Source: Lepas anatifera (lineage: Eukaryota > Arthropoda > Thecostraca > Lepadidae). Taken from it: 64,000 bases of DNA. Below are positions 3,472-64,000 of the stretch, piece after piece. A program made the position numbers and the translations under genes. The notes under the pieces are model-generated. The model did no database searches and was not told the DNA's origin. It worked only from the letters and a program-made list of their open reading frames with translations. The stretch covers positions 674,001-738,000 of the forward strand of contig JAOTON010000477.1 in the NCBI GenBank assembly GCA_034440635.1, in the 5' to 3' direction. Numbering within the stretch: the first letter of the stretch is position 1; the number at the start of each line of letters is the position of its first letter.

Positions 3472-4607
3472 GACGGATTTCATAAACGTCAAAACGATGC
3501 AATTTTTACAGTTCAGCTGTAAAATGTACGAATCTAATTTCATAAAACGGGTGGATCCTACAATTTACAGGCGTGAATTTACAGCCGAGATTTTACAGTT
3601 AACAGTCGTCCACGATTGGACGGCTGAACTGTAAAATTTTCTTGCGATGCGCTGATTGGTCGATGAATTTCATAAAGCAGAGACGACTGTAAGATTGATT
3701 CTAAAATTTTACAACTGTAAAATCTGAATTTAACAGTGGGTCATAGCACTGTAACATTCCTCGGTCGCCATCTTGTTTATTTGTGTGTTGAGTTGGCTTC
3801 GGAATGAAGAATGAAGAATGATGAAAGAATGAGAAGTGTTTTCTGACCATGGATCCATCTCGAATGGGGACTCAGCGACCATTTTTGGTAAGTTACGGAG
3901 ATGACAGTATTGATATTCGCTATTTGTCAATGCTCAATTCCCTACCAATGCAGCAATACTTAACGGATTAAGCACGGCATGGGGATTGCCCCCACCCCAT
4001 GGGTGAAACATTCTCAGATTTACGTAAGGCAGCAAGTTTGCATTGCCTCCCAAATTTAAATGAAGTTTCAACGCGCCAAAAAACATATATACCTAAGGTA
4101 TGTTCCATGTTTTCTTCTGGTAGACTTACCTAGGAGGGTATTTCGTAGTGTTCTTTTGGTGATTCTTTTGTTACAAGATCGTAAGTAGGAAATATCCACA
4201 CGCACTTTTTCAGCTTCCCTTCGTACAGGTAAACGCAGGCCGCCCGTCGTCAAAGAGTTTGGTTGTCGCCCCACACTTTTCAGAATTCAACACTGAATAT
4301 ATTGATGTCTTCTTTTCTATGTTTAAGATTACCTTTTATCTCAACGACCACCGCCCCCCCCCCCACCTACCAATTACTTTAAATGATGGCGTCTCTGCCT
4401 GCGCGCCGGCGACGGGCCGTTGCTAGGCGTTGCTACGCGGGTACTGCCATCTAGTGCCGAAACTATCCGTTTGCGAAAAGCGTGGCGCCCTCTATTCTAT
4501 GTCCTCCACTACCCTGGTGGCGCCAGCAGGCAGTGGGGAATGCTAGTAGATGCGTGCGCGGACCATTGGCTGAAATGGGGGGGTGGGCGGGTCGGGGGTC
4601 ACGACCC
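3472..4607. other. A/T-rich stretch with repeated TTTACAG/CTGTAAA words
   Basis: From about 3495 to 3760 the words TTTACAG and CTGTAAA recur on both strands and form several short inverted repeats, which suggests a decayed fold-back element. The remainder shows nothing identifiable. A poly-C run lies at about 4350-4365. Confidence 0.3.
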
Positions 4608-4700
4608 CCTGGAATAAGGGTCTCCCATAGGCTTTGCTTAGGACTTGTATTTACGTGCCAGCGTTAACCCATGCAGGACCCCCTGGATCGAGAAGCCATA
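4608..4700 (+). repeat. Interspersed repeat, second copy at 26570-26675
   Basis: This stretch and 26570-26675 share GGGTCTCCC(A/G)TAGGCTTTG, GCTTAGGACTTGTATT-like sequence, CAGCGTTAACCC and CCCCCTGGATCGAGA, in the same orientation. The type of element is unknown. Confidence 0.6.
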
Positions 4701-4772
4701 TCCAGCTTTGGCAGCAAGAGATCTCAAAGTCAATAGGGGCTTGCATTTTGTTTTCGGCGCGTAATGGGTGAG

Positions 4773-5040
4773 CATAGGCGGATCCAGGATTGCCGATCGG
4801 GGGGGCACCTTCCCGGGGGGCGCCATCCGGACCAGGGGGCGCCACTTATGACTGGCAAAAGCTATCAGGTGGGCGCCAAATCCTATCGGTGGGCGCCGAC
4901 TTTCGCATCCTGGGGGGGGTGGGAAGCGACATTTCAGGGGGCGCCATCGACCTTTCAGGGGGCACCATCGACCTTTCAGGGGGGCGCCGAGGGTCGATCG
5001 GGGGGCACGTGCCCCCTTGCCCCCCCTGGATCCGCCTATG
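4773..5040 (+). mobile_element. hAT-type MITE with perfect 8-bp TSD
   Basis: The element begins CATAGGCGGATCCAGGATTG and ends CCCCCTGGATCCGCCTATG, so the termini are inverted repeats. It is flanked on both sides by TGGGTGAG (4765-4772 and 5041-5048), an exact 8-bp duplication as hAT transposases make. The 268-bp interior is very GC-rich, contains repeated (A/C)TTTCAGGGGGC(G/A) blocks and has no coding capacity. Reading frames through it are low-complexity artefacts. Relatives in this window lie at 5303-5625, 23778-23935, 33464-33856 and 40485-40922. Confidence 0.9.
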
Positions 5041-5302
5041 TGGGTGAGCTAGCCGTTTCAAGAAGGAACATCCAGCAGAGGCGGATGTAAGGGGAGGGTC
5101 GATGGGGCGACCGCCCCTCCTCCACTTGGGCTGAGTTTAACCACTGCAAAGGGCCTCAAATATGTCTGATGGGCGCTCCAGGGGAACCCAAACACCTTTT
5201 GAATGCTGGTCCAGAGGGCTCCAAGAGTTTGTCTCGGGTCATAAAGTATTAATAGTTGGTTCCGGGAGTCCCAAGTAGCAGTCTCAGGGGCTCCCAGAGC
5301 AT

Positions 5303-5625
5303 GGACAGATCCAGAATTAGCAATGTGGGCACCATCCCGGGGGCACCACTTTCGGTCGACAATACCTATAAAGTGGGCGCTTAATCATATTTCCTATGAA
5401 TCCTATTAATCCTCCCATGGTGCCGATTTTCCCACTCTAGGGGGTTGGGGGAGTTTGGGAAGCGACATTTCAGGGGGCGCCATTGACTTTTCAGGGGGTG
5501 CTGTGACCATTTCAGGGGGCGCTGAGGGATATTGCAGCGCATCTTTTCCGGCGTGAGGTTTTTTTGCTTTTCGACTTTTGACTTTGGTTTCCCCTCCCAA
5601 ACCCACCGGCTAGATCCGCCACTGA
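5303..5625 (+). mobile_element. Degenerate relative of the GGATCC-ended MITE
   Basis: The ends are diverged: GACAGATCCAGAATTAGC at the left and CGGCTAGATCCGCCACTG at the right. The interior shares the CATTTCAGGGGGCGCC blocks of 4773-5040 and the C/T-rich right part of 33464-33856. No clear TSD is visible. Confidence 0.55.
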
Positions 5626-6964: not shown

Positions 6965-7873
6965 AAAGTGAAAAGTGGAGTGGTTTTGGGGTTTTTTCTA
7001 CGAGCCCTTAGAATTTGTAGTGAAGAGTTTTTGAAGGAAGAGATGGACCACGTTTTTCAAGTATTTTTAAACTTACAATACCCAAAAGGCTTACTGATTC
7101 AACTGCGAGAGAAGGCAAAGAAAATAAAGAAAGAAGCAGAAAAAAGAAACCAGGACAAGAATGAAAACCGAAACAACGAAAGAAACGACACAGAAGAAAC
7201 AAAAAGAGAAGCATAACGATACCGAACTCATCCCATGCCGAAGCCATCTCATCTGCGTTTAAAGGAAAGGGAGTCGAAATATGCATCCACTCGGGAAAGA
7301 AAATAGGCGACCTGCTAAAGAAGAAAAATCTAGTTATTAATACAAACAGTGTCATTTACCAAATTCCCTGCTCCGGACCATGCCAAAAATGTTACATAGG
7401 AGAAACTGGACGAGGCCTTTCAACAAGACTCAGCGAGCACAAACGAGATGTAAAAAACCATTGCGAAAATAGCAGCGTAGTGAGACATATCGATAAGTGT
7501 AACTATTTACCAAAATGGGAGAACGCTAAAATACTTAAAAGTGGCATGACAAAACCAATCAGAAAAGCATTAGAGGCAGCATATATTTTAAGCAATCATT
7601 CGGCACATAACTCTAAACCAGGTTTTTTCAGGTGGGGAACAGCAGCGGCACGGTTAGCTTTAGATCACGAGTAATTCAGATGATTTTCTTAAATATTCCA
7701 AGGCGATTCAAAGTGTTTTTCAGTGATCTGTTTCGAACTTAAGCTTTTGTATGTGTATTTACAGTGTTTTTGATGTGAGCTACTGACGAAGGAACTCTGT
7801 TTCTGAAACGTATAGCATTCCAAAAGTTAATAAAGTACGTGTTTTGCTAAAGAGCTCTATTGTCCGTGTGACG
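6965..7873 (+). mobile_element. Penelope-like element, 5' partial tandem copy (pseudo-LTR)
   Basis: This 909-nt block is almost the same as 9513-10423, the 3' part of the adjacent full unit. The differences I see are one A in an A-run near 7200, one G/T at 7635, and one A near 7825. It encodes the end of the reverse-transcriptase linker and the GIY-YIG domain, then carries the 3' untranslated region with a hammerhead motif and an AATAAA. Penelope-like elements are known to insert as such head-to-tail partial tandems, in which the upstream truncated copy acts as a pseudo-LTR. Here the final codons read on 10 residues further, to TAA at 7672-7674, whereas the full copy has a premature TGA. Confidence 0.85.
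7779..7816 (+). ncRNA. Hammerhead ribozyme motif in pseudo-LTR
   Basis: The core CTGACGA (7783-7789) is followed by a 5-bp stem II, AGGAA/TTTCT with loop CTCTG, then GAAAC (7805-7809) and GTA. Stem I is GCTA (7779-7782) paired with TAGC (7813-7816). Stem III is minimal: C-G plus A-U. The predicted cleavage lies after the A at 7812. Minimal hammerheads of this kind are known in pseudo-LTRs of Penelope-like elements and may act as dimers. Here two copies lie 2549 nt apart in one transcript. Confidence 0.75.
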
Positions 7874-7898
7874 ATTAAAAACGTCAACAGAAAACAAG

Positions 7899-10187
7899 AT
7901 GTCTAATCACGGCAATAGTAGCAACGTTAACGTAATCAAGGAATATAACTTAAAGAAAAACTCTCCAGCACCCTGAATCGCCTTCGATTTTTGAAGCAAT
8001 GCCAAGAGGAGATGGTTTTACCCAAATCGACCCCCGCACAAATACGAAATACGACAAAACCTTTCAGTATAACTGCAAGATCATACCTAGAAGAGGCAAT
8101 ACAGGACCTTAAAAACAAGACATACGAATTAAAGGATCAACTGCAAGGGCCACATTTACCGACACATCTCGAAACGAAACTAGCGACAATGATCGACGAG
8201 CAACGTAAGAATCTTAAAAAGAAGCTTAGAAGTCTCTGCACTAACAGCATGTGGGGAAAAGTCGGTAATGTAGATTTAATAACTAATTTATCGTCACATC
8301 AACTCTGCCAAGAAGAAAGAGAGGCATTGTCACTAGGCTTGAAGTTCGATTCAGGTAAAGACAAGTATTCCTATGTAGAGCATCTCAGCCGCAACAACAA
8401 ATATGAAGACAACGATGTGGACGTAGGGTTCATCCAAGGTCTCTTAACTTGCTGCAAGATTTTAGCAGATAAGGAACCGAATAGTCTCCCAAGACGATAT
8501 CTTAAAGCCTTGCAAGATCTTGCAAAAAATGAGAATATCATAATAACTCAGGCCGATAAGGGTGGTGGCATAGTCGTTTTGGATAGTGCTGAATACAAAA
8601 GAAAACTGCAAAACTTATTGGATGATGCAGATACATATCAAAAAAGAAAACAGTGGCTGTGTAAAAAAGAAAAGTAAACAGTTTAACAAAAAAGCAAGAG
8701 CAATATTGAAGAAAAGTGAAAAGGGCAAGAGACTGATGCATCTTCTGGAAGAAGCACCTCGGGCACCAAAACTGAGAGGTCTGCCAAAAGTACACAAGGA
8801 AGGGATTCCCATGAGGCCAATAATATCAGGCATAGGAAGTGCACCGCACAAGCTAGCCAAAATTCTTGCAAAGCCCCTTTCGAGATCTCTGGGTATCATC
8901 AGTGGCAGTCATGTTAAAAACTCTTCTGAGATCATGAACAGCCTTAAAAACATCGATGTGAAAAACAAGAAAATAGCCAGCTTTGATGTCAAATCTCTTT
9001 TCACGAACGTGCCTATCACAGGAGCCTTAGAAATTATCGAAGAAACAGTAAACCTTTTGGATGAACGTACACTGCCGCTTCCAAAACAACAATATATATC
9101 ACTTGTTTCATTATGCATGCACTTCAATACATTTGCCTTTGACGGAGAAGAATTTAGACAAAAAAGTGGATTAGCTATGGGATCACCCCTAAGCCCAGTC
9201 GCGGCATGTCTCTACATGGAAAAACTGGAGGAGAGCCGTTTCAAAGAAATTATAGGACCTGGATGTACATGGAAAAGGTATATAGATGATGTATTAGTTG
9301 TGGTGCCGAAGGAAACAAATCTAGAAGAAAAGCTGAACGCTCTAAACGAAGTGGACCCAAACATACAATTCACCATAGAAAAAGAAAACGACAACACGCT
9401 CCCATTTTTAGATTTACTTATCATGCGACGACCGGACCACGTAAAATTCAAAGTCTACAGGAAACCAACTTGCAAGGAAGACTACATTCACTATTTTTCA
9501 GCACATAACAAAAAAGTGAAAAGTGGAGTGGTTTTGGGGTTTTTTCTACGAGCCCTTAGAATTTGTAGTGAAGAGTTTTTGAAGGAAGAGATGGACCACG
9601 TTTTTCAAGTATTTTTAAACTTACAATACCCAAAAGGCTTACTGATTCAACTGCGAGAGAAGGCAAAGAAAATAAAGAAAGAAGCAGAAAAAAGAAACCA
9701 GGACAAGAATGAAAACCGAAACAACGAAAGAAACGACACAGAAGAAACAAAAAAGAGAAGCATAACGATACCGAACTCATCCCATGCCGAAGCCATCTCA
9801 TCTGCGTTTAAAGGAAAGGGAGTCGAAATATGCATCCACTCGGGAAAGAAAATAGGCGACCTGCTAAAGAAGAAAAATCTAGTTATTAATACAAACAGTG
9901 TCATTTACCAAATTCCCTGCTCCGGACCATGCCAAAAATGTTACATAGGAGAAACTGGACGAGGCCTTTCAACAAGACTCAGCGAGCACAAACGAGATGT
10001 AAAAAACCATTGCGAAAATAGCAGCGTAGTGAGACATATCGATAAGTGTAACTATTTACCAAAATGGGAGAACGCTAAAATACTTAAAAGTGGCATGACA
10101 AAACCAATCAGAAAAGCATTAGAGGCAGCATATATTTTAAGCAATCATTCGGCACATAACTCTAAACCAGGTTTTTTCAGGTGGTGA
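7899..10187 (+). pseudogene. Penelope reverse transcriptase/GIY-YIG endonuclease, two frameshifts
   Basis: The product would copy the element's RNA into DNA at a nick made by its own endonuclease. The ATG at 7899 opens the frame. Near 7950-7960, in an A-rich run, the frame must shift to the one open to 8677, and in another A-rich run near 8655-8677 it must shift back. From there the frame runs to TGA at 10185-10187. Visible RT motifs are motif A SFDVKSLFTNVP (8979-9014), motif B GLAMGSPLSPV (about 9168-9200) and the catalytic YIDD box (9279-9290), followed by FLDLL. After a Lys/Glu-rich linker comes the zinc-binding and GIY-YIG region, IPCSGPCQKCYIGETGR (about 9910-9960). The first and third segments share a frame, so the two indels compensate; this copy cannot make the full protein without recoding. 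The start is inferred because the alternative TTG at 7991 lies inside homologous coding sequence. Confidence 0.85.
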
Positions 10188-10327
10188 ACAGCAGCGGCAC
10201 GGTTAGCTTTAGATCACGAGTAATTCAGATGATTTTCTTAAATATTCCAAGGCGATTCAAAGTGTTTTTCAGTGATCTGTTTCGAACTTAAGCTTTTGTA
10301 TGTGTATTTACAGTGTTTTTGATGTGA

Positions 10328-10365
10328 GCTACTGACGAAGGAACTCTGTTTCTGAAACGTATAGC
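10328..10365 (+). ncRNA. Second hammerhead ribozyme motif
   Basis: Same core as the upstream copy: GCTA at 10328-10331, CTGACGA at 10332-10338, stem II, GAAAC at 10354-10358, then GTA and TAGC at 10362-10365. Self-cleavage at both sites would release an RNA of about one unit length with defined ends. Confidence 0.75.
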
Positions 10366-10423
10366 ATTCCAAAAAGTTAATAAAGTACGTGTTTTGCTAA
10401 AGAGCTCTATTGTCCGTGTGACG

Positions 10424-13192: not shown

Positions 13193-13384
13193 ACAGCGTG
13201 GCATGTGCGTGCGTATAAGAGCGGTAGGTGGGATTTAACAGTATTTACTTGTCAGATTTATTTGCAGCGCAATACAAATACATATTATTCCACAAAAGAC
13301 CTGAAATTAAATGATTTTGCACCCTAGTACTCTAAATCCCGACAGAACAGTAATGCCTTCCGGAGGCGTACCTTTCTCTACTAA

Positions 13385-13735
13385 CTATCGCTGGAGAACG
13401 TCGTAAGGCAGGTGCTTCTCCCTATTCTCCTGCGAACTATTTAAGGGCTCTGGTACTGATAAACGAATACCCTGTTTCATATTTTTACCCTTTAGGTGGC
13501 TCACGAAATCTTCCACCAGCTCCACACCACGCTGTGTGATCATTCGCCACATTAAGTTCTGGAATACCTTGAAACAGGAGAAGTTATACCAGTCATCAGC
13601 TTCGTAACGGAGCCATTTCTGGTCAGAATATTTCAGATTCAGGCAATCGAATACCAGCCAGCTGTCACGAGTGACAAGCTGGCTGAAGCTTAGTACCGAG
13701 CATTTACAGAGCTTTTTATAGCCTCTATCGGAAAC
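13385..13735 (-). pseudogene. Transposase-like protein fragment, family uncertain
   Basis: On the minus strand 116 codons are open between a stop at 13736-13738 and the stop at 13385-13387. The frame lacks an early ATG but looks coding: it contains DSWLVFDCLNLKYSD, WLRYEADDWYNFSCFKVFQN and QRGVELVEDFVSHLKGK, and ends in YDVLQR. The pattern of a Trp/Phe-rich segment followed by RGV-L--DF resembles the C-terminal part of multicopy, transposase-like proteins of invertebrates, as I remember them; I cannot name the family safely. Upstream (13740-13900) homology with the right copy continues but with stops. Probably the last exon or end of a decayed transposase gene. Confidence 0.45.
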
Positions 13736-14054
13736 TTAAGCCTGCCCTAGTCAAATGTGAATCGTTTGCTGCTTTGGCCAATTATTGTGCGACTGGCTCC
13801 TATACCTCCAAGATGGTGGTTCTCACCAGCGGGACAGAATATAACTTTTTGCGCACAGATACCACAGCTGATGGCAAATTGACTTCAGCACATTCAGGGC
13901 AATTTCTATATTAACTTAATGAAAGCACTGCACTGCATTTTATGAATAGCTTTGAGGCTCATAGAAGGCTCTAAAGCTGACTATCCGCGACGGAGGAACC
14001 CAAATGCATGGTTTAGAACCACTTACAAGGAAAGCCGTTGAATATTTCGGGGTC

Positions 14055-14959: not shown

Positions 14960-15365
14960 GGAACGTTCCTGATAGGTCTTCCACTCCGGTGATGTATAGA
15001 GGCGCCGAAGTCAATGTGCAAACGCAACTGTTATTTGTGACCAGAAAGTTATAATCTGCTTCGCAAATAAGAATCACAATGCTGCAGGTAAAAAAACAGC
15101 AATACAGCACCTGGCCTAAACAGCAAAACCATCCACCTTTCAGTTAGGTAGGCTAAAGTTTTCGACAGAGGCTATGAAGAGCTCGGCTCGATACCAAGCC
15201 TCTCCCAATTTCTCATTCCTGAAAGCTGGATGGTATTTGAGCGCCTGAATCTGAAATATTCTGACATGCAATGACTCCTTTGAGGAGCTGGTGACTGGTA
15301 CAGTCTCCCTGTTTCAAGGTATTCCAGAACTTACTGTCGTGAACGGTCCCACAGAACATGGTGTG
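14960..15365 (+). pseudogene. Right copy of the transposase-like sequence, 5' part
   Basis: Homologous to the reverse complement of 13530-13900. It reads ESWMVFERLNLKYSD around 15220-15265, then meets a stop and frameshift (CAATGACTCC where the left copy reads CAGAAATGGCTCC). The LTR element interrupts it at 15365/15366. The coding remainder continues at 19205-19342. Damaged before the insertion or independently of it. Confidence 0.5.
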
Positions 15366-15519
15366 TGTGATGTACTGGTACCGCTGGTGTAGTGCGCCCT
15401 CACGAGATGGTGTTAGTGCGGTAGGCACCGGGCCTGACCGTGCAGCGGCAGTCGTCGAATACACTTCAAGAGCTGAGCAAGTGGTGTGCCATGAGAGTGC
15501 GGGAAGCGGGGATCTAACA
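15366..15519 (+). repeat. 5' LTR
   Basis: 154 bp, beginning TGTGATGTACTGG and ending GGGATCTAACA. Identical to 19046-19199. Unusually short for a gypsy-type LTR; no clear TATA box. Confidence 0.93.
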
Positions 15520-15537
15520 TGGCGCGGTCGGTTTGAG
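15520..15537 (+). promoter_or_regulatory. Probable tRNA primer-binding site
   Basis: The 18 bases after the 5' LTR begin TGGCGCGG. The leading TGG is what pairs with the CCA end of a tRNA primer. I cannot assign the tRNA. Confidence 0.65.
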
Positions 15538-15568
15538 GACATTGCACCCAAGAAGTGACTGAGAAGCC

Positions 15569-18500
15569 ATGGCCAAGCAGGACACTGACTCAGGTATGGC
15601 CCTTGTAGCCGACGCGATTTTAAAGCTGCAGGAAAACGTTGTGCTTTTGACGAACCACATCGCCTCGGAACATAGCCAGCGTAGCCAGCTTCAACCCGCC
15701 CCTGTGTCAACCAGTTCGGTTGGTCAAGGACCACGACCCATCGCTCTGCAGCCGCCCCAACTGGGTTCATCTGTTTCGTTAAAGGAGTTCGATGTCTGGA
15801 AACATAAGTTTGAAGGCTATGCGACTCTGTCACGGCTCTCTAACTTCCCCGCTACAGAACAGCGTGCAGCCCTGCAAGCCGCTGTTAGCGATGATTGGAA
15901 CCGTATCATTCGGTACAGCCTTACTCTCACTGACGACACGCCCCTCACTGACCTAATCGGTCTCATGGAAAAGCATCTGAGGGACCAGCGGAACATCGTG
16001 GTCGACAGACGAGATTTTCACACTCGCATCCAGCATCCGAGTGAGAGTTTTGATGACTTCTTGTGTTCTGTCAAGGAGATCGCCGGTTTCTGTGACTTCT
16101 GTACAAACTGTATCGATAACCGGCTGAGGGATCGAATCGTAGCAGGGATAAGGGACGATGACACCCTTAAGCGTCTGTTGGAGAAGCCTCTCACTCTTCA
16201 GAGGGCGATCGATATATGTCGCGCAGCGGAAAGTGCTGCTAAGAACAGCGCCGACATCAGGGGCTATTCTGACCCGTCCCTGTACGCTGTTTCTCGCTAC
16301 AAACGTGAATCTCGCTATCATGTCTCCAGCCCTCCACCGGCAGCCACACCTGCACGCGTGACGTCATCAGACCGGCCACGGGGCAGCCGCGGCCGCACGC
16401 CGGTGCCTGCGGCGAGCGGTCAAGGTCACGGCCGGCCCTCCCCCTCCCCGCCCCGGTATCAGCCGGGCCACAGCCTCCGGTCACCGAGTGGTGAGTGGGG
16501 CCAAGGGACAAGCAGCCGGTACCGGGAGAATGCACGCGCTCCAAACCGGTCTCGGGAGAGACGATATGACAGCCCGTATCGGTATAGGGAGAGCCGGTAC
16601 GAACGCAGTCCCAGCCGGTCTCCTGCCAGGAGGCAAGGCCGATACAGATATCGTTCACCCAGTCCATACTACCATGCCAGCAGCCAGTCTCCCCGCCGTG
16701 ATCATGCATTTCGTTATCACGTGAATGTATGTGAACGCAACACGTCGGTTTCCACAGGATCTGACAGGTCTCGATCGTGCTGCGTCGGCACTTCCCCGAC
16801 GATAGCCGACATCCGGAGGCACGGAGCATCTGTGCGACCGGCGCTGAAAATAAAGGTACAGTTCAGTTGTACTGCAGGTACCATTGTGTTCAACTCCATG
16901 GCCGACTCCGGCGCTAAAGCCACAGTTGTTGGACCAGCAGCGGCAGAAGCACTGGGATTCAATGTCTCAACATTGAGTGACACTGGCCGTGCACCGGCGT
17001 TTTCCGCTGCGGGACGGCAGCCCCTCACGTGGCTCGGGAGCTTCCCAGCGTGCTTGAGGCTAGGTGACCGGGAGACTAAAACTGAAGTGTCCGTTCTGAA
17101 GGAACTCGGTAGCACTGTTCTGATCAGCTGGTTTGACTCCATCGCACTGGGTGTGCTTCCGGCAGATTTTCCCGCACAGATCAGGATGGTGCGCGGCCAG
17201 CGCCACGCCAGTCTTCCTCCGATCCAATTTAGGAGAGGTACTGAGCCGCCCGAGGGTTCTGCGCTTCAGTCGACGCCGAACCGGCACCATAGAACGCCGC
17301 CGCCTGGTGATGCCTGTGGGCAGACAGCGCCGTCTATCGACAAAGACAAGAACCAGTCACTCTCTCATCTCCAATCCGTCGCTGAAGATGGCACGCGTCT
17401 CACTCCCCTGCAAGACCAAACTTTGGAGATGGTCCGTGCCGCTGCAGCCCGCGACCCTGAATATGCAGCTTTACATGACGTCATCATGTCCGGTTTTCCG
17501 GATCACCGGCAAGATCTCCAGCCATCCCTTCGTCCGTACTGGGGCGTGCGCTCCATGCTGGCGGTCGATGAGGGGTTGGTCGTGTGTGGCCCCCGCCTTC
17601 TGATCCCGCAAAGCCTACGTCGAGAAACCCTGCACCGGCTGCACGACTCGCACCAGGGCATGGGTCGCACCAAAAGGCGGGCGCGTCAAACCGTCTACTG
17701 GCCTGAAATCGACAAAGACATCGAGAACACAGTTTCATCATGTCAAGAGTGCCGTAAATACCTGCCGAGTCTTCCAAATGGACCCCTATGGCAGGATGCT
17801 TCATCTCCAACTCGCGTCTTTGAATCTGTATCTGCAGATTACTTCCACGCAGCTGGCCGCACATACTTCATATACGTGGATAGGAAATCTGGATGGCCTA
17901 TCGTGTTCGAGTGTCCTCGCAGCGGCGCATCCGCTGAGCATTTGACCCGTCTCCTCAGGTCAGTGTTCGCCGACACTGGCGTGCCCGTGCTGCTGAGGAC
18001 AGATGGAGGCCCACAATTCACCTCTGGGACACTTCGGCGCTTCCTTCAAAGGTGGGGTGTCCGTCACGTGATGTCTTCTCCGCATTACCCGAGATCGAAT
18101 GGACATGTGGAAGCCGCGGTCAAGACCCTGAAGCGACTGGTACTAACACTAACATCACCCAATGGCCAGCTTGATCAGGATGCTTTCGCCAGAGCGCTCA
18201 TAGAGCTCAGAAACACGCCTCGCGCTGACGGAAAATCGCCTGCACAGATCTTATTCGGTCATGCTATGCGTTCTAGCGTGCCCACTCATTTCCGCTCCTT
18301 TGCAGCCGAGTGGCAAACAGCAGCAGACGAAGCCGACAGGCGGGCAGCACGTCAGCGTCAGGAGCAAAAGTGGAGACACGACCTGACAGCTCACCCGTTG
18401 TCACAACTGCGGATCGGCAACGTCGCCGACATACAGGACCCACGTACCTCACGGTGGGACCGCGTCGGCACCGTCGTCGGGATAGGATCCAGACGAGACT

Positions 18501-18793
18501 ATCTGCTCAAGCTGAGTAGCGGCCGGGTGCTGTGGAGTAACCGTCGTTTCCTGAGGCCACACAGGCCCCTAGTGTGCAGAGAAGCGCAGTCCCTACCTCA
18601 GGCCGATCACGGCCCCTGTTCACAGACTATAACACCACACAGTTGTGCAGGTACCCCGCTAACGGTACCCCCAGTGCATCCACAGCGTTCCGCGATCTCA
18701 GCACCGGCGATGACGATGCGTAGGAGCGTGCGTGAGAGGCAGCCGCCTGACCGTCTGCGAGTGCGTTGGGGAGGTGTCAGTTACAATGACTAA
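15569..18793 (+). CDS. Gag-protease-integrase polyprotein lacking reverse transcriptase
   Basis: The single 1074-residue frame starts with ATG 49 bp after the LTR and is intact. Residues about 70-230 form a helical Gag-like region containing VDRRDFHTRIQHPSESFDDF and DRIVAGIRDDDTLKRLL. Residues about 250-400 are Ser/Arg/Pro-rich and basic, probably nucleic-acid binding; no CCHC knuckle is visible. The aspartic protease active site is DSGA, with Asp446. Where about 500 residues of RT and RNase H should follow, there are only about 100 unrelated residues. Integrase then begins: HHCC zinc region (LHRLHDSHQGMG ... CQEC, about 685-735), catalytic Asp756, Asp812 and Glu848 (D-X35-E; LRTDGGPQF and SNGHVEAAV), and a C-terminal GPY/F-like module (WDRVGTVVGIGSRRDYLLKL). 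The product should package RNA and integrate DNA but cannot make DNA itself. Confidence 0.92.
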   Translation: MAKQDTDSGMALVADAILKLQENVVLLTNHIASEHSQRSQLQPAPVSTSSVGQGPRPIALQPPQLGSSVSLKEFDVWKHKFEGYATLSRLSNFPATEQRAALQAAVSDDWNRIIRYSLTLTDDTPLTDLIGLMEKHLRDQRNIVVDRRDFHTRIQHPSESFDDFLCSVKEIAGFCDFCTNCIDNRLRDRIVAGIRDDDTLKRLLEKPLTLQRAIDICRAAESAAKNSADIRGYSDPSLYAVSRYKRESRYHVSSPPPAATPARVTSSDRPRGSRGRTPVPAASGQGHGRPSPSPPRYQPGHSLRSPSGEWGQGTSSRYRENARAPNRSRERRYDSPYRYRESRYERSPSRSPARRQGRYRYRSPSPYYHASSQSPRRDHAFRYHVNVCERNTSVSTGSDRSRSCCVGTSPTIADIRRHGASVRPALKIKVQFSCTAGTIVFNSMADSGAKATVVGPAAAEALGFNVSTLSDTGRAPAFSAAGRQPLTWLGSFPACLRLGDRETKTEVSVLKELGSTVLISWFDSIALGVLPADFPAQIRMVRGQRHASLPPIQFRRGTEPPEGSALQSTPNRHHRTPPPGDACGQTAPSIDKDKNQSLSHLQSVAEDGTRLTPLQDQTLEMVRAAAARDPEYAALHDVIMSGFPDHRQDLQPSLRPYWGVRSMLAVDEGLVVCGPRLLIPQSLRRETLHRLHDSHQGMGRTKRRARQTVYWPEIDKDIENTVSSCQECRKYLPSLPNGPLWQDASSPTRVFESVSADYFHAAGRTYFIYVDRKSGWPIVFECPRSGASAEHLTRLLRSVFADTGVPVLLRTDGGPQFTSGTLRRFLQRWGVRHVMSSPHYPRSNGHVEAAVKTLKRLVLTLTSPNGQLDQDAFARALIELRNTPRADGKSPAQILFGHAMRSSVPTHFRSFAAEWQTAADEADRRAARQRQEQKWRHDLTAHPLSQLRIGNVADIQDPRTSRWDRVGTVVGIGSRRDYLLKLSSGRVLWSNRRFLRPHRPLVCREAQSLPQADHGPCSQTITPHSCAGTPLTVPPVHPQRSAISAPAMTMRRSVRERQPPDRLRVRWGGVSYND

Positions 18794-19037
18794 GACAGTG
18801 TGGTTAGTTATGCCTAGTAGAATTCAGGGCACGGGCGAGTGAGTGGTTCGTAATTTCTGCAGGCATTGATGTGTATTTCGGTTCCGCCGTTACAGGTGTT
18901 TTTGTTCGTCTTTCGCGTCACTTGTCTTCTTTGCACAGCTGCAGAAGATGCAGTCAGTAGTCGGGACCGTGTTATCACTTTTAAGTTTCTTGAGATGGTG
19001 GCATAAGCATTTTGCATCCCATACTTTTTCACCATCT

Positions 19038-19045
19038 GGGGGAGG
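19038..19045 (+). promoter_or_regulatory. Polypurine tract
   Basis: GGGGGAGG lies directly before the 3' LTR, the place where plus-strand DNA synthesis is primed in LTR elements. Confidence 0.8.
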
Positions 19046-19199
19046 TGTGATGTACTGGTACCGCTGGTGTAGTGCGCCCTCACGAGATGGTGTTAGTGCG
19101 GTAGGCACCGGGCCTGACCGTGCAGCGGCAGTCGTCGAATACACTTCAAGAGCTGAGCAAGTGGTGTGCCATGAGAGTGCGGGAAGCGGGGATCTAACA
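19046..19199 (+). repeat. 3' LTR
   Basis: 154 bp, identical to the 5' LTR, followed by the TSD copy GTGTG. Confidence 0.93.
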
Positions 19200-19204
19200 G
19201 TGTG

Positions 19205-56664: not shown

Positions 56665-58111
56665 ATGATGAGTCAGGCGGCTGGTGGCTATGGTGGTTAT
56701 GGTACCGAAAATGTAATTATAGAGCAGCCTGCACCACTTGCAGCTGAGCCGCCACCAGTGTACTCTGTTATTCCTCCTGGCTTGCAACCCTTGGCAAACA
56801 CCGCCCAGGTGTGTATAAAGCAAGAAGTTGAGCTCTTCGAGGTGCTGTCAGGCCGAGAGTTTGCAAACCACTACTCAATATCTAACGAACAGGGCCAGAC
56901 CATGTTTCATGCGATGGAAAATAGCAACTGGTTGTTACGACAATGCTGCGGTGCAAACCGCGCCTTTGACATCACGGTCATAGACACCCTCGGCAACGAA
57001 GTACTGGACTTCTACCGGCCGTTTCGCTGTTGGGGCAGTTGCATTACACCTTGTTGTCTACAGCAGATGGATGTGACGCAGGACGGCATGCTGCTCGGAT
57101 CCATGAAAGAAAATATTGGCCCTTCACAAAGCTTCAGCATTCGATCTCCTACAGGTACGAGCCTATTTTGCCTCGCTACGGCGGGGTCAAAATTATCTTT
57201 AGCGACGAACCGACTGCTAAGGCTCTGGCTCTGGCTCTGGCTCTGGCTCTCTCTCTCTCTCTCTATGACATTTCACAACGTCCTAAGCGACCATACTTTC
57301 CGTTTCCCGAATTTAATTTGCGTCATCTTAGGTCATAAACTCATGCACATACATTTTTGCCTATGACCCTGCGACGCAAAATATCTAACCAAAAGAATAG
57401 GTAACTTTTTATAAATAAGACGTCAAATTCTGGTCACCTGCATCAGGTTGCCTGAATTTGGGTTCACATTACTAACAAACGACATGATACGGATAATGAT
57501 AAATATGTAATATTAAAAAGGTTGGCGTTACTCGAGCGGAAATTCAAGCTCTGGCTAATAATTTCAAGGACATATATTGGCTTAGTTTTGATAAAATTAC
57601 AGTAATCCTGCTCTCAACAGCCGGAGGACCTTGGTGTAGCATGTCCATATGATCTCCGTGCCAATTATTCTAAGGGAGGCTACAAACCTCTGGGCCTCCC
57701 GGAATGTTTTGAAAGGACCTCTAGGATCCGCGAATTTTGCTCGCAATTCGCTGAGCTCCTTGGTGATGATGCTTTCAGTTTCGCTGCGTTTATTGTTTCC
57801 TTCTTTTACGTTAGCTCAGACTTATACCTTTTCCCTGCGCAGGGGAAACGCAGCTGAAGATCCGCCGTGGCTGTTGTGCCTGTGCCACCTGCTGCAGCGA
57901 AGTCAACTTCAAGATCAAATCTGCCGACGGAAGGTACAACGTGGGCCTGCTGACCAAACAGTACCGCGGTATGATTGCCGAGGCCTTCACCGACGCCGAC
58001 ACCTTCACAGTGCAGTTCCCGCGTGACATGAACGTGGCAACCAAGGCCACAGTGTTAGGCGCCGTGTTCCTCATCGACTACATGTACTTCGAGGATAAGG
58101 CGCCGAAGTAG
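56665..58111 (+). CDS. Phospholipid scramblase, two coding exons (56665-57154, 57843-58111)
   Basis: Scramblase-family proteins are membrane-associated and move phospholipids between leaflets or act as palmitoylated regulators. The two exons join CAG|GTACG ... GCGCAG|GGG, splitting a Gly codon, and give 252 residues, the usual length for short animal scramblases. The N-terminus is Gly/Tyr/Pro-rich with a WW-binding PPVY motif (30-33). The scramblase core runs from about residue 38 (PPGLQPL) through the Cys cluster CWGSCITPCC (122-131) and CCACATCC (174-181), to the calcium-binding-like segment DADTFTVQFPRD (214-225). The last hydrophobic helix is ATVLGAVFLIDYMYF (232-246). All conserved blocks are present without break. 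The start is the first of two adjacent ATGs; the frame stays open upstream, so an additional 5' exon is possible. Vertebrate relatives have more introns in this domain. Confidence 0.95.
57221..57264 (+). repeat. Intronic (GGCTCT)n/(CT)n microsatellite
   Basis: Four to five CTCTGG units followed by a CT run lie in the single intron, 66 bp after the donor site. Open frames reading LWLWLW and SLSLS through it are not part of the protein. Confidence 0.93.
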
Positions 58112-59990: not shown

Positions 59991-62876
59991 TTGATATGAA
60001 AATACCAGCAACTGTAACATAAAACAAGAAACCCAAACGGACCGTATAGCTTGCTCGGAAAACCTCTTATAAAGCTGGCCTGAACTCCTGAGCTGATCTG
60101 AGGTCTTATGAGTCGGCCTGGGGCCCCTGAGCTGTTCAGGGGCCCCTGAATTAACCTCTGATGTCCTATGAGCTAACTTGGGGCTCCTTGGGATAATCTA
60201 AGGTCCCTCGAGCTGGTTTATGCCCCTCTGAACTGTTGCATGGTCCCTAAGCTGAACTGGGAGCCATCAGCCTGAATGGGCCCCTTGAGCTAGTCAAACA
60301 CCCTATACAAGCCGATCTGGGGGCCCCTGAGCTGAGCTGAGCCCCCAAAGCTAATATGATGCCCCCTGTGCTAAACTGGGGCTCCTGAGCTTATCTGGGG
60401 CTCACCCAGAGTTATAGGGCCCCTGAGCTGAGTTTGAAGTGGCCTCCTTGAGCTGTTCTGAGACGCTACATAAGCCGATCTGGGACCCCTGAGCTGAGCC
60501 GGGCTCCTAAGCTGATCTGGTCATCTGAGCTAATCTATGACCCACTGTGCAGAACTGCCCCCCCCCCACCTCCCCTCCCCCTTAGATGGACTGGGACCAG
60601 TAGAGTAGCCAAGGAGAGTCCAAGGGGTTCGCAGACCCCTCCCCCCGCCCTTGGGCCGATCGTAAGCACTCTAAAGGATTCTCTGATCAGGGGGCCCCCA
60701 GAGTCAGTCTCAGGGGCCCCAAGATTGGTTCATAGAGGCCCCGAGTCGGTCTCAGGGCCCTCCCGCCCCGATAGTTAGCATTAAGGGACCCAAGAGTTGG
60801 TCTTAGGGGCCCCCGAGAGGTGGTCTCAGGGGCCCCCTGAAAGTTGGTTTTCAGGGCCCCTGAGAGTTGGTCGCAAGGGACCCCCGAAAGTTTGTCTCAG
60901 AGGGTCCGAGAGTCGGTCTCAGCCTCCCACCCCCGAGATTAAGTCTCAGACCCCCCAAAGTCGGTTTCAGGGGGCTCCTGGAAGTCAGTCTCAGGGGACC
61001 CCCAAGAGTCGGTCTCAGGGGGCCTCCGAGAGTCGAGCTCAGGGGGCCACGACATATAGTCTCAGGGGGCCCGAGAGTTAGTCTCAGGGCCAAAAGTCTA
61101 TCTCAGGGCCCCCCAGAAGTCGGTTTCAAGGGCCCCTGAGTCAGTCTTAGAGGATCCCAAGAGTTGATCTCAGGGGCCCCGAGAGTCAGTCTCAGGGCCC
61201 CCGAGAGTCAGTCTCAGGGCCCCCGAGAGTCAGCCTCAGAAGCCCCGCCCCCCTGAGAATCGGTCTAAGGGGTCCCTCGAGAGTCTTTCTCAGGGGGCCC
61301 CTGGGAGTCAGTCTCAGGGGTCCCTGGGAACTAATCTCGGGATAAGTTATTATCAGATACCCCACCAGTGTTGGTCTAAGGGGGCTTTCTCTCAAGGGCC
61401 CCGAAAGCTAATATGGGGCCCGAGAATTAGTGTCATGAGTGCCGCCAAGTGCTGGTCTCAGGGGCCCCTCATAGTCTCAAGGGTGCCTCTCTCAGGAGAC
61501 AATATTTACTTTCAGGGGGCCCCGAGTGATCATCTGGAGTCCCGAGAGTTAGTCTCATTTGTGCAGCAGAGTGACGGTCTCAGAGGGCCGCGGAGAGGTG
61601 ATCTTGGATGCCCTCGAGAATTGGCCTCAGGTTGTCCCCCCAAGTTTTTGTCTAAGGGGCCCCAAGAATCAGCCTCGGGGAGCGCTCAAAAGCTAGTCTC
61701 AGAGGCCCCTCCCCCGAAGTCAGTGTCAGGGGCATCCGAGAGCTAATTTTGGGGCTCTGAGAGTAATCACAAGAAGTTCTCCCGAGTTTTGGTCTCACGG
61801 GCTCCAAGTTGGCCTAAGACCCCTGAGGGCTAATCTGGGGCCTCCTAGAGTAGGTCTCAGAAGCACCAATTGCTCAGTCTCAGGGACACCCCCTGAGTGT
61901 TAGTCTCAGGGGGTGCCCCAGTGTTAGTCTCAGATTGCTATCGGGAGTCAGTCCCAGGGTCCCACGAAAGTCAGTCTTAGGGGACCCCAAGATCTGACCT
62001 GGATGCCCCCGAGACTCTATGTCTGGGGCCACCCGAGAGCAAGTCTGGGGGTCCGGTAGGTAGTCTCAGAGGTGCTGCCGAGAATTTGTCTTAGGAGCTC
62101 CGAGCTATACTCAGGGCCCCCTCAGTTTTGGTCTAAGAGTCCCCGGTAATAAGGCCCAGGGGCCCCTGACAGCTAATCGGGGGAGGGGCCGAAAATTAGC
62201 GTCGCAAGTGCCGCTAAGTGTTGGTCTTAGGAGGGCCTCAGAGCTAAACTGGGAATCCTGAGCTTATCTAGGGCTCACTTATACGGCCCCTGAGCTGAGC
62301 TGGGGGTCATGAGCTTAAAGTGGCCTTCTTAAGCTGTTCTGAGACGCTATATAGACCGACCTGGGGCCCCTTAGCTGAAACGGGCTCCTAAGCTGATCTG
62401 GTCATCTGAGCTAATCTGGGGCCCGCTGTGCTGAACTGGGGACCCCGAGATGGTCTGGGATCCCTGAATACTTTTAGAGTCACTGAGCTGGAACCGTTGA
62501 GCTATTCTGAGACAGTACATCAGCCGACTTGGGACCCTGAGCTTATCTAGACCCCTAAAAGCTAATTTGGGCCCTTAGCTAATCTCAGGCGCCCTGTGAT
62601 GAACTGAACAGCCCCTGAGCTGGTCTGGGGCACCTGCGCTGTTATTAAGTCCGCTGAGCTGAGCTAAGGGCGATGAGCTTGAATGGGCCTCTTGAGCTTT
62701 TTTGAGCTCTACACCAGCCGACCTGGGGTCCCTGAGCTGAACTAGGCCGCCAAAGCTAGTTTTGGGCTCTAAATTAATATGAGGCCCCTCTGCTGAACTG
62801 AGCAGCCCCTGAGCTAGTCTGGCGCCCCATGCCCAATTATAGGACCCGCTGAGCTAAGCTGGGGGGCCATGAGCTT

Positions 62877-63298
62877 GAGTTGGTCCATTGAGTTGTTCTG
62901 AGACCCTATATCAGCCAACTTGGGGGCCCCTGAGCTGTGCTGGGCCCCACAGATAATTCGAGCCCTAAGCTAAGCGGGGCCCCCTGTGCTTATATGAGGC
63001 CTCTGAGTTGGTCTGGAGCCCCTGCACAGTTCTAGCGTCCCTGAGCTAAGCTGGGGGCCGATGCCTTGAATGGCCCATTGAGCTGGTTTGATACCCTATA
63101 TCAGCCGACCTGGGCCCCTGAGCTGAGCTTGTCTCCCACAGCTAATATGTGGCCCCTGTGCTGAACTGGGGTCCCCAGCTGGTCTAGCCCCCTTGGACTC
63201 TGCTAGGGTCATTGAGCTGGGATCCGTAGGCTTAAACGGGTCCCTTTAGCTGTTCCTGAGACCCTATATAAGCCAACCTGGGGGGCCCTGAGCTGAGC
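62877..63298 (+). repeat. Higher-order direct repeat, first copy
   Basis: This stretch recurs at 63579-64000 with an offset of 702 bp and only a few differences, in contrast to the strong divergence between neighbouring basic units. This indicates a recent duplication of a long block. Confidence 0.9.
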
Positions 63299-63578
63299 CG
63301 GGCCCCTAAGCTAGCCTGGCTTCCTGAGACAATCTGGAACGCCCTGTTCGGAGCTTTTAGGGCCCTGTGCTTATGTGGGGTCCCTTAAAAGGTGGTCCCA
63401 TGAGCCGGTCCCTTAGCCCATGAGCAAATTTGGGGTCCCCAGAGCTGACTAATTTGGTTCCTGAGCCATGGTTTGGGCACTGGGGGCCTCTATGATAACT
63501 TGGCGGCTTCTGAGCGGCATAGGCATAGGAAACGGGAGAGTGGCGGGCCAGGGGAGCCACTGGCCCTCCACTGTTCTG

Positions 63579-64000
63579 GAGTTGGTCCATTGAGCTGTTC
63601 TGAGACTCTATATCAGCCAACTTGGGGGCCCCTGAGCTGTGCTGGGCCCCACAGATAATTCGAGCCCTAAGCTAAGCTGGGGCCCCCTGTGCTTATATGA
63701 GGCCTCTGAGTTGGTCTGGAGCCCCTGCAGAGTTCTAGCGTCCCTGAGCTAAGCTGGGGGCCGATACCTTGAATGGCCCATTGAGCTGGTTTGATACCCT
63801 ATATCAGCCGACCTGGGCCCCTGAGCTGAGCTTGTCTCCCACAGCTAATATGTGGCCCCTGTGCTGAACTGGGGTTCCCAGCTGGTCTAGCCCCCTTGGA
63901 CTCTGCTAGGGTCATTGAGCTGGGATCCGTAGGCTTAAACGGGTCCCTTGAGCTGTTCTGAGACCCTATATAAGCCAACCTGGGGGGCCCTGAGCTGAGC
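63579..64000 (+). repeat. Higher-order direct repeat, second copy (truncated by window end)
   Basis: Near copy of 62877-63298, starting GAGTTGGTCCATTGAG directly after the hAT-like terminus and short GC-rich stretch at 63518-63578. It runs to the last base of the window. Confidence 0.9.

Follow-up and report, generated by a model that had tools for sequence, protein, structure and literature searches.

An LTR retrotransposon lineage of Lepas anatifera that encodes Gag, protease and integrase and probably takes its reverse transcriptase in trans

A long terminal repeat (LTR) retrotransposon that encodes Gag, protease (PR) and integrase (IN) in one open frame, and no reverse transcriptase (RT), is located in a 64,000-nucleotide stretch of the Lepas anatifera genome (assembly GCA_034440635.1, contig JAOTON010000477.1, positions 674,001 to 738,000 of the forward strand; this whole stretch will be referred to as the window). 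The element probably belongs to a semi-autonomous Ty3/gypsy-type lineage that makes Gag, PR and IN and takes RT in trans. As read from the sequences of its copies, RT and RNase H (528 codons) were evidently removed in frame from an RT-bearing ancestor at the letters CTCC, so that a single Gag-PR-IN polyprotein remained. This RT-less form has evidently made six or more insertions at unrelated positions, and the pattern of substitutions demonstrates purifying selection on Gag and IN between these insertions. RT would be supplied by RT-bearing partners, and such copies are present in the same genome.

The features of the element, by window position and strand, are as follows.

15361..15365, no strand: 5' target site duplication (TSD) GTGTG, of which the element-free target copy has one.
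15366..15519, plus strand: 5' LTR of 154 bp, TGTGATGT...ATCTAACA.
15520..15531, plus strand: primer binding site TGGCGCGGTCGG, directly 3' of the 5' LTR, with the same letters in RT-less and RT-bearing copies.
15569..18793, plus strand: single open frame Gag-PR-IN of 1074 codons (open reading frame and Pfam).
15569..16768, plus strand: Gag part, residues 1-400, basic and Arg-Ser-rich towards its end, without a CCHC knuckle, assigned by position and homology to the RT-bearing relatives.
16889..17122, plus strand: aspartyl protease, residues 441-518, with DSGA at 446-449 (Pfam Asp_protease_2, below cut-off).
17369..17372, plus strand: deletion junction with CTCC microhomology, where the RT-bearing relatives carry about 1584 bp more (RT, RNase H).
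17603..17761, plus strand: H2C2 zinc-binding domain of IN, residues 679-731 (Pfam PF17921, E 7.8e-16).
17822..18112, plus strand: IN core, rve at residues 752-841, drawn on to E848 (Pfam PF00665, E 1.8e-11; D757, D812, E848).
19038..19045, plus strand: polypurine tract GGGGGAGG, directly 5' of the 3' LTR, identical in C886, C1850, C49 and C528.
19046..19199, plus strand: 3' LTR, without a difference from the 5' LTR.
19200..19204, no strand: 3' TSD GTGTG, matching the 5' duplication.
13194..13780, minus strand: element-free inverted copy of the target repeat (empty site).

The matches to Integrase_H2C2 and rve are above the Pfam cut-off, and that of the DSGA region to an aspartyl protease is sub-threshold. 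The catalytic triad of IN (D757, D812, E848) has the D-X35-E spacing, and the PDB sequence matches of IN include the foamy-virus and Ty3 integrases. No Pfam match to an RT or RNase H family is found in the 1074-codon frame, and no YxDD-type RT motif in the six frames of the element. The Gag part has no match in Pfam or the PDB, and a CCHC knuckle is also absent from the Gag of the two near-complete RT-bearing relatives (C528 and C1841, see below). A model of the Gag core, produced by AlphaFold2 without an alignment, had a mean predicted local distance difference test score (pLDDT) of 39 and was not used.

The TG...CA ends of the LTRs, the primer site, the polypurine tract and the short TSD are all features of Ty3/gypsy-type LTR retrotransposons. 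Moreover, IN is of the gypsy type (H2C2, D-D35-E) and, in the relatives with RT, lies downstream of it. A polyprotein that includes RT and RNase H is a further mark of Ty3/gypsy elements; the window element lacks both, and these relatives have them. In Copia and Gmr1-like elements, PR and IN precede RT. Loss of RT from the 3' side of such an arrangement was rejected, as no RT follows IN and the relatives carry RT between PR and IN. Searches for relatives of the open reading frame in viral contigs, and of the IN part in the genome_contigs collection, confirmed none.

The element is inserted in an older repeat. Its joined flanks align to the element-free copy at 13194-13780 with 86% identity, and the insertion and its 5-bp TSD are therefore real. 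An earlier note, made by a model from the letters of the window, had described two identical 154-bp LTRs, the TSD, the primer site and the purine tract, and each was recovered between 15361 and 19204, with 154 of 154 LTR positions identical. The unbroken 1074-codon frame that it reported, with DSGA in the protease, D-X35-E in IN and no RT, was confirmed by the open reading frame, Pfam and a motif scan. Its "intact Gag" stands as far as position and homology among relatives go, and is backed by neither a Pfam match nor a CCHC knuckle. The description "very young" agrees with the LTRs, but over only 154 bp zero differences allow roughly 2% divergence (3/154).

Searches covered the genome of 1.04 Gb in 2126 contigs. 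The LTR search gave 41 matches, with 40 of 45 candidates scored, and the protein search gave 52 match rows at 38 loci, with 43 of 5796 first-look candidates scored; the copy numbers are thus lower bounds. Twelve of the 38 loci belong to the family of the window element and 26 are divergent. Partial copies and lone LTRs (L014, L015, L021-L025, L027, L028 and L035) were kept outside the copy count.

The same PR-IN junction is found at no fewer than six loci, C452 (the window copy, written W in the branch and pairwise comparisons), C886, C1850, C978, C648 and C49. Their TSDs are, in this order, GTGTG, CAGGT, CCGTG, ATAGG, CCACC and GATTC, and their LTR pairs differ at 0, 0, 0, 1, 0 and 2 of 154 positions. 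When the 500-bp flanks of seven RT-less loci, C528 and C1841 were compared, no match was seen between any two RT-less loci. The matches that were seen are a short one between C648 and C528, and those of one flank with the other within C978 (299 bp, 92%) and within C648 (36 bp). The seventh RT-less copy, C1449 (TSD GAGGG), has a different junction with a gap about 63 bp wider, and may represent a second loss or a later widening of the gap. It carries two in-frame stops and one mismatch in the primer site, and its polypurine tract, like that of C978, shows small changes. The DSGA motif is kept in all six other RT-less family copies that cover the protease, and the DDE residues in 7 of 7. As a separate observation, the LTRs of C648 (L012/L013) are identical with their ends 12,272 bp apart, which leaves about 8 kb of other DNA inside Gag.

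Four RT-bearing relatives are present in the family. C667 and C940 have RT matches and have lost other parts. C528 (5457 bp) and C1841 (5445 bp) are near-complete and align collinearly to the window element, with about 92-96% identity, except for extra DNA at window position 17369-17372 and about 42 bp late in Gag. The pol frame of C528 contains RVT_1, RNase H and integrase in Pfam, and the extra segment corresponds to RVT_1 plus RNase H. These two copies differ from the window element by RT and RNase H between PR and IN, and have the LTR (about 88-92%), primer site, Gag, PR and IN in common with it, their DNA being about 88-96% identical. Their LTR ends are TGTGATGT...CTAACA, with one base different two before. 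The LTRs of C528 show 0 differences, compared with 0-2 of 154 in the RT-less copies, and 154 bp allow rough dating only. Measured by what excerpts of PMC9744471 give for semi-autonomous elements, a partner with the same primer site and LTR ends exists (C528, C1841), and multiple copies were active in the partner's period according to this rough dating.

The four letters CTCC are common to both sides of the RT-RNase H segment and form the junction at 17369-17372. The raw offset is 1585 bp in both C528 and C1841 (L018, L020). Each carries one private 1-bp insertion, at a different place, and the ancestral segment therefore had 1584 bp, or 528 codons, and was lost in frame. The possibility that PR and RT stood in different frames in the parent was rejected, as the private insertions explain the offset. 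Recombination between long flanking repeats was likewise rejected, since C528 and C1841 have none besides the LTRs and only CTCC is shared.

In unrooted trees, the six common-junction copies are split from C1449 and the RT-bearing copies with supports of 0.993 for PR, 0.998 for IN and 0.940 for the 3' region; these trees included two, four and three RT-bearing copies, respectively. No RT-bearing copy falls inside the common-junction clade in any of the three. The partial copy C2055 stands beside C49 in the 3' tree. In the IN tree with divergent outgroups, the six copies are together at 85. The Gag tree is weakly resolved.

Changes were assigned to branches with C528 and C1841 as outgroup, and all tests are one-sided. 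The expected share of nonsynonymous (N) changes among nonsynonymous plus synonymous (S) ones is 0.69, from the observed mutation spectrum of the window's family; it is hardly altered by a CpG factor of 3 or 10, and was applied to the other lineages as well. Doubly changed codons, of which the inner branches have 2, were excluded. The two inner branches of the common-junction clade carry 5 N:10 S (p=0.005), and PR contributes none of these changes. Adding the C49 branch brings the count to 13:21 (p=2e-4), with 4:9 in IN (p=0.005) and 6:11 in Gag (p=0.004). The pooled terminal branches of W, C886, C1850, C648 and C978 are neutral, at 35:13, as is the terminal branch of C1449, at 46:23. Inside and terminal branches differ (Fisher p=0.012). 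The lineage therefore appears to have been selected while replicating and to be neutral once inserted. Between W and C49, the synonymous divergence (dS) is 0.038 and the nonsynonymous divergence (dN) 0.012, a ratio of 0.32 (IN 0.25, Gag 0.27; PR 0.90 on 7 changes). Pairwise ratios among W, C886, C1850 and C648 are 0.55-1.13, and that of W to C528 is 0.27. PR has too few changes for selection to be judged. By construction, C528 and C1841 carry the ancestral state at the 17 inner-branch codons. Twelve of these can be read in C667 or C940, and one of the twelve (codon 699) shares its derived state with C940.

The earlier note had expected many copies with the same junction, a single copy being evidence against it, and an RT-bearing relative with similar LTR, primer site and Gag. 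Six loci, each with its own TSD, and the copies C528 and C1841 agree with both expectations. It had also named two findings that would speak against it, an assembly collapse at about 17.2-17.4 kb and other copies with RT at the same place. The junction itself lies in that interval, at 17369-17372, but its recurrence at six loci with distinct TSDs argues against a collapse, and the RT-bearing copies are outside the common-junction clade. Its dN/dS below 1 for Gag and IN is matched by a depletion of amino-acid changes in both on the inner branches; the changes in PR are too few. Its idea of a kept polyprotein that packages and integrates is supported by the shared junction and the inner-branch selection in Gag and IN, and we infer, as it did, that RT comes from a partner.

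Other RT-less lineages were found among the divergent loci, of which 18 of 26 were fetched (the others are C493, C908, C1571, C1711, C265, C623, C107 and C296). Five have no RT match (C222, C1976, C971, C1901 and C1503), twelve have RT, and C89 has the RNase H end only; 5 of 18 is not a frequency, because the five already looked RT-less in the protein search. C222 and C1976 are collinear at about 93-96% with C741, an RT-bearing element with one 1596-codon frame, and both lack positions 3983-5432 of it (1450 bp). They share one junction with a 2-bp indel close by, for a net loss of 1452 bp, in frame. Their LTRs are about 94-98% like those of C741, and their primer site (TGGCGCGGTCTG) differs by one base. 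There is one stop in C222 and five in C1976. The N:S count between them is 91:64 (p=0.004), with 31:27 in IN (p=0.009).

The third lineage consists of C971 and C1901, which are 95% alike. C971 has a single Gag-PR-IN frame of 1067 codons, and the 5 kb retrieved for it show no second LTR; in C1901, two of the codons compared are stops. Their IN count is 41:38 N:S (p=0.001). The dS between C971 (L036) and C1901 (L037) is 0.034 in Gag-PR and 0.131 in IN, which looks like a recombinant history between RT-less copies. The fourth lineage, C1503, has 368-bp LTRs that are 99.5% alike and the TSD ATTAG. Its primer site is a different one (TGGCGCAGCC), it carries two CCHC knuckles, and Gag and PR-IN are encoded by two frames that overlap. 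The four lineages are apart in a 29-sequence IN tree (C222/C1976 with C741/C1759 at 100, C971/C1901 with an RT-bearing group at 99, C1503 on a long branch), so that RT was lost at least four times if it was not regained. IN is in the frame of PR in all four, which is weak evidence because the lineages were found through protein matches that favor in-frame cases.

Partial deletions of other kinds were also seen. C1759 (L030), a relative of C741, shows the opposite type of deletion, in which Gag-PR is missing and part of RT, with RNase H and IN, is left between LTRs 99.5% alike. In C89 (L042), an IN relative, only the RNase H end was matched upstream in the 4.5 kb fetched, another partial loss of RT.

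In the mechanism proposed here, the RT-less RNA would keep the LTRs, primer site and polypurine tract, and its own frame would supply Gag, PR and IN. The RNA would be packed in particles of Gag-PR-IN together with some full Gag-Pol of an RT-bearing sister (such as the C528/C1841 type), and the RT of the sister would copy it from the shared primer site. The resulting complementary DNA (cDNA) would be inserted by integrase, at least some of it encoded by the element itself. The simplest route would be for Gag-PR-IN particles to take in a few full polyproteins as they assemble, because the sisters have matching ends and primer site. In retroviruses, RT acts as a catalyst, of which each particle needs only a few molecules, but Gag, dimeric PR and multimeric IN are required in quantity. 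It is likely for this reason that RT alone could be dispensed with, whereas each cDNA needs several IN protomers.

In this genome, RT may be a public good. Gag-PR-IN elements would have evolved in convergence, on four or more occasions, from distinct RT-bearing families that lost RT and RNase H in frame, and would persist as a distinct semi-autonomous class in which IN stays selected because each cDNA needs it, unlike RT, in number. This generalization is tentative, with a chance that we place slightly short of even. Confidence in it, and in the main reading, is tempered because only 12 of the 17 inner codons are readable in C667 or C940, the changes in PR are too few to judge selection, and the in-frame count is biased by the way the lineages were found.

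Several observations weigh against the semi-autonomous reading and its extension to other lineages. Only the window copy, one of the six with the common junction, has an unbroken full-length frame. C1850, with a deletion in Gag, has 921 open codons, C886 has 1054 up to a frame break near the end, C648 and C49 have frame breaks, and C978 has three in-frame stops and has lost the zinc ligand H692. The substitutions inside the clade are few (15 single-base codon changes), and PR has 5 N:2 S between W and C49. The derived state is shared with C1449 at 5 of the 17 inner-branch codons, because of which the branching order in Gag is uncertain, as the Gag tree agrees; with these five dropped, about 4 N:8 S are left. 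C1449 itself joins the RT-bearing copies weakly (52, IN tree with outgroups), and it possibly lost RT independently. Were the deletion a recurrent one, the selection could have taken place in RT-bearing sub-lineages that have gone unseen. Beyond the window's family, C971 is the only copy of lineages two to four with a fully open long frame, and has Asn in place of the second catalytic Asp. Gag-PR of C971/C1901 (34.5:12.5 N:S, dN/dS 0.9) is not selected by this measure.

Some of these points would suit RT-less copies that are passive by-products, made by RT-bearing masters that repeat the deletion by template switching at CTCC. Such copies would be dead on arrival, with selection inherited from RT-bearing ancestors. 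Template switching typically yields deletions at microhomologies such as these 4 bp, the different and wider gap of C1449 suggests that RT may have been lost twice at this spot, and terminal branches are neutral with frames broken in most copies. We nevertheless consider this origin unlikely. Repeated deletion does not readily account for six copies that are split from the RT-bearing ones in the PR, IN and 3' trees and held together when outgroups are added, nor for the single readable inner-branch codon, out of twelve, that is shared with an RT-bearing copy. The junction of C222/C1976 with its nearby indel would also be hard to repeat, and the frame of IN in the four lineages points the same way, weakly. 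Co-packaged RNAs recombine, and an RT-less element might instead live wholly on partner proteins, its own frame being refreshed by recombination with RT-bearing RNAs during reverse transcription. The mosaic history suggested by the dS contrast of C971/C1901 would fit. However, RT should then be restored at times, yet none of the six common-junction copies has it, and the sharing of derived changes at only 1 of 12 readable codons is against it too; we regard this possibility as quite improbable.

Two further explanations have next to no probability. The sequences come from an assembly, which leaves room for a collapse or a single odd copy; however, six loci with dissimilar flanks and TSDs of their own share one junction, and the window holds an element-free copy of the target. 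A Gag-PR-IN gene domesticated by the host would agree with the intact frame and the selection in the lineage, but hardly with identical LTRs, a TSD, multiple copies and neutral terminal branches. A semi-autonomous lineage, if this reading is correct, shows over natural evolutionary time, and in replicate, which proteins an LTR element continues to encode and which single one it can borrow. The question of stoichiometry (IN and PR kept, RT not) becomes testable. It is also a warning that RT-based searches for LTR elements miss young, coding, multiplying families.

The published precedents, as excerpts of the papers describe them, keep Gag or Gag-Pro, or are without Gag. RLG_Sabrina_SA of wheat, called "semi-autonomous" (Gag-Pro; PMC9744471), resembles the window element in being Gypsy-type, with an intact partial polyprotein thought to give proteins while the rest is taken from an autonomous partner. 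It has neither RT nor IN and keeps only Gag and protease, whereas the window element retains IN under selection. RLG_Quinta and RLG_Cereba of einkorn wheat are also an RT-less and RT-bearing pair with common LTR ends and primer site, the RT-less one contributing Gag; RLG_Quinta differs in having Gag and a domain of unknown function, with no RT and no IN (PMC11302176). BARE2 of barley likewise lacks one function, supplied in trans by a close sister, and is still multiplying, but what is absent is Gag, not RT, and the superfamily is Copia (PMC3735527). For RLG_WHAM and RLC_Giselle of barley, Gag is possibly intact and mobilization by partners is thought to occur; RLC_Giselle differs in being without both RT and IN (PMC5738225). 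Short non-autonomous elements with small-RNA-like LTRs are described in PMC10886601. No Gag-PR-IN element without RT was met among titles and the starts of abstracts that searches of the open-licence literature listed, subscription papers and Repbase being outside this scope, and its absence from print is not claimed.

Other features of the window include an RT-coding element at 6965-10423, with Pfam RVT_1 in a frame at 8586-10187, between 911-bp direct repeats (6965-7873 and 9513-10423) that are 99.7% alike. The GIY-YIG-like stretch after its RT points to a Penelope-like element. A frame at 56665-57366 has a Pfam Scramblase match and is likely an exon of an animal host gene. An array of diverged 22-24-bp and longer GC-rich repeats occupies 60259-64000. 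Elsewhere in the genome, six CCHC knuckles in a row are located near an LTR fragment at locus L028 (C645:2859946-2866446), and we take this row to resemble a CNBP-type host gene.

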